Shown here piece after piece: positions 12,720-54,144 of a stretch of DNA of 64,000 nucleotides. This DNA comes from Flavobacterium cyclinae (GTDB lineage Bacteria; Bacteroidota; Bacteroidia; Flavobacteriales; Flavobacteriaceae). The stretch lies in assembly GCF_021172145.1 (NCBI RefSeq), contig NZ_CP089095.1:744001-808000 (forward strand), read 5' to 3'. Position numbers and translations under genes: made by a program. The stretch's first letter is position 1; the number at the start of each line of letters is the position of its first letter. The notes under the pieces were generated by a model. It was given only the letters and a program-made list of their open reading frames with translations. It did no database searches and was not told the DNA's origin.

Positions 12720-13889
12720 ATGAATTCAATGTATTTCACAGAAGAACACGAATTATTCCGCCAGAGTTTTAGAGATTTTTTACACAAGGAAGTTGTTCCA
12801 CATATTGAAAAATGGGAAAAAACGGGTACGATAGAACGTTTTATTTGGGAAAAATTTGGCGAAATGGGATTCTTTGGGTTAAATTATCCAGAGGCTTATG
12901 GAGGAATGAACTTGGATTTATTTTACACTGTTATTTTCTTAGAAGAACTTCAAAAAATAAAATCATCTGGTTTTGCTGCAGCTATGTGGGCTCATGCTTA
13001 TTTGGCAATGACTCATTTAAATGCTGAAGGAGATGAAAGAATAAAACAAGAATATTTAGCACCAAGTATTGCTGGAAAAAAAATTGGGGCATTGTGTATT
13101 ACTGAACCTTTTGGAGGAAGTGATGTTGCGGGAATGAGAACAACAGCGGTTCGTAAAGGAGATAAGTTTGTAATTAATGGTTCTAAAACGTTTATAACAA
13201 ATGGCGTTTATGCGGATTATTATGTTGTAGCTGCAAAAACAAATCCAGAATTAGGTAATAAAGGAATCAGTATCTTTTTAGTAGATACCAATATTCAAGG
13301 TATTTCGGCTACTAAACTAGATAAATTAGGGTGGAGAGCATCTGATACAGCAGAAATTGCTTTTGATAATGTTGAAATTCCTGTTGAAAATTTAATGGGT
13401 GAAGAAGGAAAAGGATTTCCTTATATTATGCAACATTTTGCATTGGAAAGATTAATTATGGCGATTAATGCTCACGCAAGAGCGGAATATGCTATTGATT
13501 ATACATTAGAATATATGTCACAGCGTGAGGCTTTTGGTAGTCCAATTAATAAATTTCAAGCTTTACGCCATACCATGGTAGAGCATGCAACTGAGGTTGA
13601 ACACTGTAAAATTTTCAATTATGCTGCAGTAGCTCGATTAAATAACAAAGAATACGTTGTTAAAGAAGCGACTATGGCTAAATTAAAATCAACTAAGGTT
13701 GCGGATTTGGCTATATATGATTGTTTGCAAATGTTAGGAGGTTATGGTTATATGGAAGAATATCCGTTAGCACGTTTGTTAAGAGATAGTCGTTTAGGAC
13801 CAATTGGAGGTGGAACTTCTGAAATTTTGAAAGAGATTTTATCAAAAATGATAATCGATAATCAGAATTATAAGCCTGCAGTAAAATAA
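12720..13889 (+). CDS. Acyl-CoA dehydrogenase, LCAD/isovaleryl-type active site
   Basis: This 389-residue flavoprotein of the acyl-CoA dehydrogenase family introduces the alpha-beta double bond of acyl-CoA and passes electrons to ETF. It shows the FAD-binding segment CITEPFGGSDVAG, ITNGVYADYYVV, SQREAFGSPINKFQALRH and LGGYGYMEEYP. The C-terminal motif is PIGGGTSEI, with Gly where medium-chain enzymes have the catalytic Glu. Glu243 in HFALERL occupies the alternative catalytic position used by long-chain and isovaleryl-CoA dehydrogenases. The substrate is therefore probably a branched or longer acyl-CoA. ATG at 12729 is a possible later start. It stands alone between HhH and rpsU. Confidence 0.92.
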   Translation: MNSMYFTEEHELFRQSFRDFLHKEVVPHIEKWEKTGTIERFIWEKFGEMGFFGLNYPEAYGGMNLDLFYTVIFLEELQKIKSSGFAAAMWAHAYLAMTHLNAEGDERIKQEYLAPSIAGKKIGALCITEPFGGSDVAGMRTTAVRKGDKFVINGSKTFITNGVYADYYVVAAKTNPELGNKGISIFLVDTNIQGISATKLDKLGWRASDTAEIAFDNVEIPVENLMGEEGKGFPYIMQHFALERLIMAINAHARAEYAIDYTLEYMSQREAFGSPINKFQALRHTMVEHATEVEHCKIFNYAAVARLNNKEYVVKEATMAKLKSTKVADLAIYDCLQMLGGYGYMEEYPLARLLRDSRLGPIGGGTSEILKEILSKMIIDNQNYKPAVK

Positions 13890-13923: not shown

Positions 13924-13931
13924 TACATTTG
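13924..13931 (+). promoter_or_regulatory. -7 promoter element (TACATTTG) for rpsU
   Basis: This is an exact TAnnTTTG match 29 bases before the rpsU ATG, which places the start of transcription just upstream of the Shine-Dalgarno sequence. No clear -33 TTG is visible. Confidence 0.65.
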
Positions 13932-13944
13932 CACCCTTAACGAG

Positions 13945-13952
13945 AGGAGGTG
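13945..13952 (+). promoter_or_regulatory. Perfect Shine-Dalgarno sequence of rpsU (AGGAGGTG)
   Basis: All eight bases are complementary to the canonical 16S rRNA 3' end, with 8 bases of spacing to ATG 13961. Other starts in this window have AT-rich leaders without an SD, as expected for Bacteroidetes. The exception at the gene for bS21, a protein of the ribosome platform near the anti-SD, points to autoregulation (see findings). Confidence 0.85.
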
Positions 13953-13960
13953 TCTATATT

Positions 13961-14155
13961 ATGTTAATTATACCAATTAAAGACGGAGAAAATATCGATA
14001 GAGCATTAAAGCGCTATAAAAGAAAATTTGATAAAACAGGAACTGTTCGTCAGTTACGTGCACGTCAAGCTTTCATTAAGCCATCTGTTTTAAACAGAGC
14101 TAAAATTCAAAAAGCAGCTTATATTCAAGGATTAAAAGATTCTTTAGAGAGTTAA
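13961..14155 (+). CDS. rpsU: 30S ribosomal protein bS21
   Basis: The 64-residue basic protein begins MLIIPIKDGENIDRALKRYK and carries RKFDKTGTVRQLRARQAF, diagnostic for bS21. It sits on the platform of the small subunit next to the 3' end of 16S rRNA. In Bacteroidetes ribosomes bS21, with bS18 and bS6, is reported to sequester the anti-Shine-Dalgarno tail. The gene has its own promoter and a terminator at 14179, so it is monocistronic. It is the only gene in the window with a full Shine-Dalgarno sequence. Confidence 0.97.
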   Translation: MLIIPIKDGENIDRALKRYKRKFDKTGTVRQLRARQAFIKPSVLNRAKIQKAAYIQGLKDSLES

Positions 14156-14178
14156 TATTTTTTTGAATAAACTATACT

Positions 14179-14224
14179 AACCGCTAATAAATAAAGTGTA
14201 ACTTTGTTTTTAGCGGTTTTTTTT
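14179..14224 (+). terminator. rpsU terminator with an xerC promoter element in its loop
   Basis: AACCGCTAA (14179-14187) pairs with TTAGCGGTT (14210-14218) and is followed by T8. The 22-base loop contains TAACTTTG (14199-14206), a TAnnTTTG -7 element. The T run touches the xerC ATG at 14225. Confidence 0.75.
14199..14206 (+). promoter_or_regulatory. Candidate -7 element of the xerC promoter inside the terminator loop
   Basis: TAACTTTG fits TAnnTTTG and would start transcription about 10-14 bases before ATG 14225. No -33 TTG at the usual distance was found. Confidence 0.45.
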
Positions 14225-15115
14225 ATGGCTACAAATTTACAAGCATATCAGAATTATTTAGTTAAAGAGAAAAATTATTCTCCTTTAACAGTTCGTGCTT
14301 ATTTAGATGATATTTTATCTTTTCAGGATTATCTAAATCAACAATCAATCACATTAGAAGAAGTTGTTTATCCAAATGTTAGAAATTGGATAGTTGTTTT
14401 AGTCGAAAACAATGTAAGTACTACTTCCGTTAATCGGAAAATTTCTGCCTTAAAATCGTTTTATAAGTTTTTACTAAAGGTAAAGCAGATAACGGTAAAT
14501 CCACTTCTGAAGCATAAATCATTAAAAACAGCTAAAAAAGTTCAAATTCCATTTTCTGAGAAAGAAATGAGAGATGTGTTTTTGGATCATGATTATGTTG
14601 ATGATTTTGAAAGTATTCGAAATAGATTTATTTTGGAGCTATTTTATACCACTGGAATTAGAAGAGCCGAATTGATTAATTTAAAGTTGAAAAGTATAAA
14701 TGAAATCCAAAAAACAATTCGAGTAATTGGAAAAAGAAACAAAGAACGAATTATTCCAGTATTAGATTGTACTTTAGATTTATTCAAGAAATATAAAGAG
14801 CAACGAGATAATTTAGAGCAAATTAAAGATATTGAGATGTTAATTTTGTCTAAAAGAGGTAATAAAGTGAGTGAATCGTTTGTATATCGATTAATAAATG
14901 ATTACTTTAGTACTGTCTCGAAAAAAGAAAAAAAGAGTCCACACGTTCTTAGGCATTCCTTTGCAACACATTTGTTGAATAATGGTGCCGATTTAAATTC
15001 CGTAAAAGAGTTATTAGGTCATGCTAGTTTGTCATCTACCCAAATATACACCCATAGTAGTTTGGCAGAATTAAAAAAAATATATCAAGAAGCGCATCCT
15101 AGAAATAAAAAATAA
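14225..15115 (+). CDS. xerC: Tyrosine recombinase XerC/XerD-type
   Basis: I place the start at ATG 14225, giving 296 residues. The frame is open 7 codons further to a TTG, but those codons lie in the rpsU terminator. The N-terminal SAM-like core-binding domain (about 5-90: [17 protein letters not shown]) precedes the catalytic domain. Active-site residues are Arg146 (TTGIRRAEL), Lys170 in the beta-hairpin, His240 and Arg243 (SPHVLRHSF), His266 (LLGHASL) and nucleophile Tyr275 (TQIYTH). It should resolve chromosome dimers at dif. The genome's XerD would be elsewhere, and C versus D is not fully separable. Being between rpsU and hpf is usual in Flavobacteriia. Confidence 0.9.
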
Positions 15116-15148: not shown

Positions 15149-15451
15149 ATGAAAGTTAATTTGCAAGCAGTAAATTTTAATGTAGACAGAAAATTGGTAG
15201 ATTTCATTCAAGAACGAATGGATAAATTAGAAAAGTATTATGATAAAATTGTTTCGGCTGAAGTATTTTTAAGACTCGAAAACACTAGTGATAAAGAAAA
15301 TAAGACGGTTGAAATAAAAATTATTGTTCCTGGAGATGATTTTTTAGTTAAAAAAACAGCAAAAAGTTTTGAAGAAGCGGCTGATTTATCGGTTGATTCA
15401 CTAGAGCGAGTAATTATGAAAAGGAAAGAAAAATTAAGAGCGCATTCATAA
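15149..15451 (+). CDS. hpf: Ribosome hibernation promoting factor (short HPF/RaiA family)
   Basis: The 100-residue protein begins MKVNLQAVNFNVDRKLVDFI and has the beta-alpha-beta-beta-beta-alpha pattern of the RaiA/HPF family. It ends in a basic helix (LERVIMKRKEKLRAH) and lacks the C-terminal dimerization domain of long HPF. It binds the 30S decoding region in stationary phase and prevents translation or promotes 100S dimers. It lies 33 bases behind xerC, probably co-transcribed, and before a hairpin at 15507. Its position next to rpsU and the tuf operon places it among the translation genes. Confidence 0.9.
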   Translation: MKVNLQAVNFNVDRKLVDFIQERMDKLEKYYDKIVSAEVFLRLENTSDKENKTVEIKIIVPGDDFLVKKTAKSFEEAADLSVDSLERVIMKRKEKLRAHS

Positions 15452-53289: not shown

Positions 53290-54144
53290 ATGAACATATT
53301 AGATGATTTAAAATTACAATACAGAACAGGAGGTATGGTACAAAAGTTAATCTTTTGGAACATAGGTTGCTTTTTGTTGTCGTTGGTCTTCTTTTATAAA
53401 TTTTCTGTTGGTAAATTTGAAATTCCGACATGGATTGCTTTATCTTCTCATTTAGAGACTTTTATCAGTTCACCTTGGACATTAATAACGTTTAATTTTT
53501 TTCATTTCGGATTTTTTCATTTGATTTTTAATTTGTTGGTGCTTCATTTTTCAGGGAGATTATTTTCGACTTATTTTACTGATAAACAATTGTTAGGTGT
53601 TTATGTTTTAGGTGGAATTTTTTCTGGAATTTCTTTTGTGCTGTCTTACATTTTTGTTGGAAAAGCAGGTTTATTGATTGGTGCTAGCGGTGCAATTATG
53701 GCAATTTTATTAAGTGCTGCCACTTATGCACCTTTTATGTTATTACGAATTCCATTGGTAGGTATTGTAAAACTTTGGCATGTTACTTTTGTAATTTTAC
53801 TGCTAGATTTGATTCAATTGCCTTTAGATAATACAGGTGGTCATATTGCTCATTTAGGTGGTGCTTTATTTGGATTTCTGTATATAAAACTTTTGAAATC
53901 GGGAATAGATTTGAGTAACGGAATTTCAAAAGTTTTAGATTTTTTTGTAAATCTTTTTAAACCTAAAACGCATACTCCATTTAAAAAAGTGCATCGAAAC
54001 ACAACAAAAAAAGGTGTAAATTCGTTTTCAGAGAAAAATGTAACTCAAAAACAGATTGATGATATATTGGATAAAATCAGTAAATCGGGTTATGATAGTT
54101 TAACAAAAGAAGAAAAGGAATTCCTATTTAAAGCAGGAAAATAA
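53290..54144 (+). CDS. Rhomboid family intramembrane serine protease (second copy)
   Basis: The 284-residue protein has six helices, with Ser133 in LIGASGAIMA and His188 in GGHIAHLGGALFGF. After the last helix comes a basic C-terminal cytoplasmic tail of about 80 residues (KPKTHTPFKKVHRNTTKKG; QIDDILDKISKSGYDSL). The tail is of the type DUF6576 found in Bacteroidetes rhomboids, as I recall. The pair at one locus may process different substrates. It is 3 bases before the next gene. Confidence 0.9.
   Translation: MNILDDLKLQYRTGGMVQKLIFWNIGCFLLSLVFFYKFSVGKFEIPTWIALSSHLETFISSPWTLITFNFFHFGFFHLIFNLLVLHFSGRLFSTYFTDKQLLGVYVLGGIFSGISFVLSYIFVGKAGLLIGASGAIMAILLSAATYAPFMLLRIPLVGIVKLWHVTFVILLLDLIQLPLDNTGGHIAHLGGALFGFLYIKLLKSGIDLSNGISKVLDFFVNLFKPKTHTPFKKVHRNTTKKGVNSFSEKNVTQKQIDDILDKISKSGYDSLTKEEKEFLFKAGK

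Follow-up and report, generated by a model that had tools for sequence, protein, structure and literature searches.

Does the rpsU gene of Flavobacterium cyclinae, which encodes the ribosomal protein bS21, carry a Shine-Dalgarno (SD) site through which ribosomes lacking bS21 could call for more of it? An earlier note on this DNA had proposed such autoregulation from a single octamer, and had pointed to the 16S rRNA 3' end of the genome and to the rpsU leaders of relatives as the places to look. We analysed the whole stretch of 64,000 nucleotides, hereafter the window, in which rpsU occupies positions 13961-14155 of the forward strand. The ORF starts with the ATG at 13961 and encodes 64 amino acids with a tyrosine at position 54. 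Its product matches the NCBIfam model S21p with 52.1 bits against a cut-off of 28.95, and aligns over 64 of 64 residues (115 bits, 59 of 64 identical by our count) with chain z of the structure 7jil, which we take to be the F. johnsoniae ribosome. The bS18 gene was also found in this genome.

The octamer AGGAGGTG was confirmed at 13945-13952, 8 nt upstream of the rpsU ATG, and has no further exact match on the two strands of the window, in agreement with the claim of an only perfect SD. All three 16S rRNA copies of this genome end in GGAACACCTCCTTTCT and pair with AGGAGGTG. The 8/8 match described earlier proved to be an underestimate, as the leader forms 12 contiguous pairs with its own 16S tail, one of them G-U. 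This extended SD, GAGAGGAGGTGT, covers 13942-13953 on the forward strand and reaches -21.5 kcal/mol in RNAduplex, where a perfect 14-mer gives -22.5 kcal/mol. The value lies below the published limit of < -13 kcal/mol, which was set with another program. No hairpin was predicted in the rpsU leader (folding z +0.99), and the search for known RNA families found none at the SD site and only tRNAs in the window.

To what extent could such a site arise by chance? As an 8-mer, AGGAGGTG is not rare: 0.59 copies are expected per window, at least one copy appeared in 51 of 100 shuffles, and the whole genome holds 58 copies. At SD spacing, about 0.002 copies are expected by our arithmetic, in which the shuffle result is scaled to 58 starts and 9 spacings. 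It is thus the placement in front of rpsU, and not the 8-mer itself, that is non-chance. When the 58 ORF starts of the window, which may include some non-genes, were scored against the 16S tail of the genome, rpsU was the strongest, and no other first ATG reached -13 kcal/mol; the median was -0.7 kcal/mol. The AT-rich character that the earlier note had ascribed to the leaders of neighbouring genes fits these weak scores and inspection by eye. An ATG at 53335, in frame but not the first of its ORF, reaches -13.4 kcal/mol.

The genome was further screened by a pattern search for AGGAGGTG and near variants, which for two of the patterns covered about 100 places each of 122 and 110. Among 62 distinct contexts resembling AGGAGGTG, only that of rpsU precedes an apparent true start of a gene of at least 60 codons at a usable distance. 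Three others (L097, L114 on the minus strand, and L115) lie 3-14 nt before the start of an ORF of at least 60 codons and were rejected as second strong SDs because they sit inside longer frames, with 28, 440 and 285 codons open upstream, respectively; for L097 the likely upstream start was judged by eye. The next best place by energy, at 2852660 (-20.6 kcal/mol), is intergenic, runs opposite to the neighbouring genes and precedes an ORF of 5 codons. Sites at 2576216 and 209567 lie within open frames and were likewise rejected.

Another reading would be that the rpsU SD is a strong constitutive initiation site that ensures high bS21 output with no feedback. A 12-bp SD would indeed promote initiation by every ribosome whose anti-SD is free, and feedback is not evident from sequence alone. 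However, the genome holds 122 instances of AGGAGG with an ATG 3-12 nt downstream and 141 of the reversed control, which gives no indication that SDs are used generally, and rpsU output in F. johnsoniae depends on bS21 (PMC9976891). We therefore regard a purely constitutive site as unlikely.

The segment upstream of the SD contains TACATTTG at 13924-13931 on the forward strand, 29 nt before the ATG. It matches TAnnTTTG, presumably the -7 promoter element consensus of Flavobacterium. The spacing is conserved: all 23 same-genus leaders have TAnnTTTG 27-30 nt ahead of the rpsU ATG, 19 of them at exactly 29 nt, and the motif occurs at any position in 9.3% of 120-nt stretches drawn at random from the window. 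A sigma-70 promoter scan, which targets another promoter type, does not list TACATTTG. From the position of the motif, an rpsU leader of about 25 nt is predicted. The native F. johnsoniae rpsU leader is reported to be 25 nt long (PMC9976891). Downstream of rpsU, a hairpin followed by a T run at 14179-14224 on the forward strand is a probable terminator (-19.5 kcal/mol for 14150-14224, z -4.4). A simple terminator scan that allows loops of 3-8 only lists none there, and the stem has a bulge. As the hairpin and T run end directly before the ATG of a xerC-like gene at 14225, rpsU is probably transcribed alone.

The upstream neighbour (12720-13889) is acyl-CoA dehydrogenase-like, with no model above its cut-off. 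Downstream, rpsU is followed by a XerC-like recombinase gene (14225-15115; 291.6 bits, below the cut-off of 335), a gene for the ribosome hibernation factor HPF/YfiA (15149-15451; 51.2 bits, above the cut-off of 40.9) and, beyond, tRNA genes for Thr, Tyr and Thr. HPF/YfiA is another gene near rpsU that sets ribosome state.

We then compared rpsU leaders across the order. Searching 196 genomes, bS21 was found in 193, and we picked 100 leaders for scoring at a cut of -13 kcal/mol, with 16S tails assumed where they were unread. All 23 leaders from the genus of the window retain the rpsU SD, with energies ranging from -19.0 to -22.4 kcal/mol. The cut was reached by 14 of 18 leaders from other genera of the family, the remaining four being copies of a second, divergent gene (rpsU2, see below), by 23 of 24 in family f4 and by 4 of 17 in family f6. 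None of the 18 leaders from ten further families and none of 100 mock stretches taken farther upstream did so. The rpsU SD is hence patchy across the order and not universal. By eye, a single G-U wobble is present in 19 of the 23 same-genus leaders and two in none. The idea that this number is tuned was discarded, as the energies of GAGAGG and GAAAGG are 0.1 kcal/mol apart and the leaders are related.

The near-fixed spacing of TAnnTTTG raises the alternative that the stretch is kept for transcription, as a promoter initiation region, and not for pairing with 16S rRNA. This we consider very improbable: all 14 leaders of the SD-bearing gene (rpsU1) from other genera of the family retain the SD at TAnnTTTG distances that vary between 30 and 98 nt, the SD covaries with the rRNA, and the effect in F. 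johnsoniae survives a promoter swap (PMC9976891).

For the covariation, true 16S tails were obtained in 63 of 99 genomes, and the 61 with a matching leader were tabulated. Thirty genomes combine a canonical tail with an rpsU SD, and all 30 have C1543. In f4, which we take from its anti-SD to be the Weeksellaceae-like or Chryseobacterium group, 22 of 22 genomes with a known tail have AACATCTCATTTT in 16S rRNA and ATGAGATGT in rpsU, so that 16S positions 1535, 1539 and 1543 are all altered together with their rpsU partners. Nine of the 61 genomes lack an rpsU SD; C1543 is found in none of the nine, and the anti-SD core is changed in three (G003, G011 and G063). The changed cores of these three are CAACTCC, CACCTCA and CATCTCC. 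Covariation of the anti-SD core with the SD is already published (PMC8710568, PMC9976891). The pattern at 1543 tracks lineages, may be inherited and is taken as a hint only. Position 1532 was unusable for this purpose, being A in all 63 tails, those of G034 and G188 included. Position, 12-bp length, conservation in 23 of 23 same-genus genomes and covariation together refute a chance 8-mer, to which we assign a negligible probability in spite of its expected frequency in the window.

The mechanism that these features suggest would run as follows. In ribosomes containing bS21, a pocket formed by bS21, bS18 and bS6 would retain the 16S 3' tail, which would pair poorly with SDs. Ribosomes without bS21 would have a free anti-SD and bind the 12-bp rpsU site, and bS21 would be made from rpsU until the ribosome pool is replete. 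McNutt et al. 2023 (PMC9976891), who cite Jha et al. 2021 for the autoregulation model, report for F. johnsoniae that depletion or mutation of bS21 raises expression of rpsU'-gfp 3-4 fold and that initiation on rpsU is faster with ribosomes that lack bS21 or the C-terminus of this protein. They further state that, across 200 Flavobacteriales, a genome most often has a single gene with an exceptionally strong SD, and that about 80% of Flavobacteriales satisfy the authors' rpsU criteria. Given the F. johnsoniae circuit, the alignment with 7jil chain z and Tyr54, the autoregulation proposed for this locus is, in our view, the right interpretation and an already known one. The sequence features that the autoregulation model predicts were found as far as they were examined here, and the extended rpsU SD very probably serves F. 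cyclinae as the sensor in a feedback loop at the level of translation. The circuit is not new, and the window holds an ordinary, well-kept member: one more clean instance of the rare case in which a missing ribosomal protein is sensed via the ribosome's own rRNA.

The four SD-less leaders within the family belong to a second type of bS21 gene, which occurs in many marine Flavobacteriaceae. Among 17 same-family genomes of other genera, six carry at least two bS21 genes, and three more (G034, G188 and G130) have a single gene of the divergent type. In the genus of the window, more than one bS21 gene was found in 0 of 23 genomes, the SD-bearing copy being the only one seen. A contig scan with ten divergent bS21 proteins was evaluated for the best 80 loci of more, a selection that favours likeness to the query; 79 of these are rpsU2 and one is rpsU1 (L292). 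Residue 54 is tyrosine in 80 of these 80, and no SD was found at the -13 kcal/mol cut in the 79 rpsU2 loci, the strongest reaching -7.3 kcal/mol.

We then chose 43 of the 80 source genomes and sought all bS21 copies in each. Two copies are present in 35, and in each of these the SD of rpsU1 reaches the -13 kcal/mol cut. The other eight have one copy, rpsU2; they comprise six Winogradskyella, strain ALC-1 and Aurantibacter aestuarii, and most are drafts, in which an rpsU1 may have been missed. The single-contig genome G130 likewise has rpsU2 only. In seven of the eight rpsU2-only genomes, the rpsU2 leader has a TAnnTTTG of its own at 41-43 nt; in two-copy genomes, none was found in the examined stretch of the rpsU2 leader in 29 of 35. 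G034 and G188, with the rpsU2 type only, share the 16S tail AATACCTCCTTTTTT, in which the core is kept and positions 1533 and 1543 differ. In Winogradskyella wandonensis (L323), a divergent rpsU1 with a full SD (-17.6 kcal/mol) coexists with an rpsU2 at another place in the genome, and this rpsU1 is perhaps on its way out.

In a tree of 81 bS21 sequences of our choosing, whose 64 columns are too few for many forks, 33 of 35 rpsU2 sequences fall into one supported clade (98/99). The other two, from genus g2 (G057 and G164), fall elsewhere, and the AU test does not reject a single clade for all 35 (p-AU 0.44). Matches to rpsU2 were found in 11 of 50,697 phage records, the best being 54.8% identical, and no close phage source was seen among them. 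A literature search of titles and abstract openings in open-access journal papers showed no mention of rpsU2, and the list of bacteria with extra bS21 genes in PMC9976891 names no Bacteroidota.

Many rpsU2 genes stand next to a sigma factor gene. Among the 79 rpsU2 loci of the best 80, 56 have a co-directional RpoD-like sigma gene that ends at most 400 nt upstream, with a gap of 10-46 nt in 31 of them; the other 23 loci lack such a gene, and two loci were clipped by contig ends. RpoD-like genes were counted in 27 genomes. The genome of the window has one. All 12 genomes in which rpsU2 is sigma-linked have 2-4, so the sigma partner of rpsU2 is a duplicate. Several genomes speak against a strict link: G081, G160, G105 and G076 have two RpoD-like genes and no second bS21, G034 and G188 have two with an unlinked rpsU2, and G110, G192 and G235 have one with an unlinked rpsU2. 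In one genome (G071), a third, more divergent bS21 gene (L211) lies two genes before another RpoD-like sigma gene (56% identical sigma).

As a tentative reading of these patterns, much of the marine Flavobacteriaceae may split its bS21 supply between rpsU1, with SD and feedback, and the SD-less Tyr54 gene rpsU2. Upon expression of the sigma gene, the rpsU2 product would enter ribosomes and hide the anti-SD again, itself outside anti-SD control, and rpsU1 would be silenced; a single sigma-rpsU2 transcript would change both polymerase and ribosome. Such a sigma-coupled, feedback-free bS21 is inferred. In Winogradskyella-type genomes, Aurantibacter and genus g3, where in addition the bases flanking the anti-SD core are changed, only rpsU2 was found, so that on this reading the feedback site would be gone. 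Alternatively, rpsU2 could serve dosage or be a plain replacement. As a new lead, rpsU2 of the relatives matters more than the site in the window. That relatives carry another bS21 gene lacking the site offers the feedback idea a natural test: SD-less and often sigma-linked rpsU2 genes, together with genomes without a detected rpsU1, provide matched species sets for which the published feedback model makes differing predictions.

Three published systems place these observations. With F. johnsoniae rpsU (PMC9976891), the gene in the window shares Tyr54, the extended SD and, among the sites screened, the scarcity of other strong SDs, as well as a short leader and a single-gene transcript, both predicted here; it differs in that its site comprises 12 bp with one G-U. 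The covariation reported for Chryseobacterium and its relatives (PMC8710568, PMC9976891) is the same as that in f4, with one difference: in f4 the joint change extends beyond the core, to position 1543 and its partner. The bS21 paralogues of Francisella and other bacteria (PMC9976891), with more than one bS21 per genome and a proposed role in altering ribosome behaviour, compare with rpsU2 of the relatives and not with the window; unlike those paralogues, rpsU2 has no SD and often stands behind a sigma gene.
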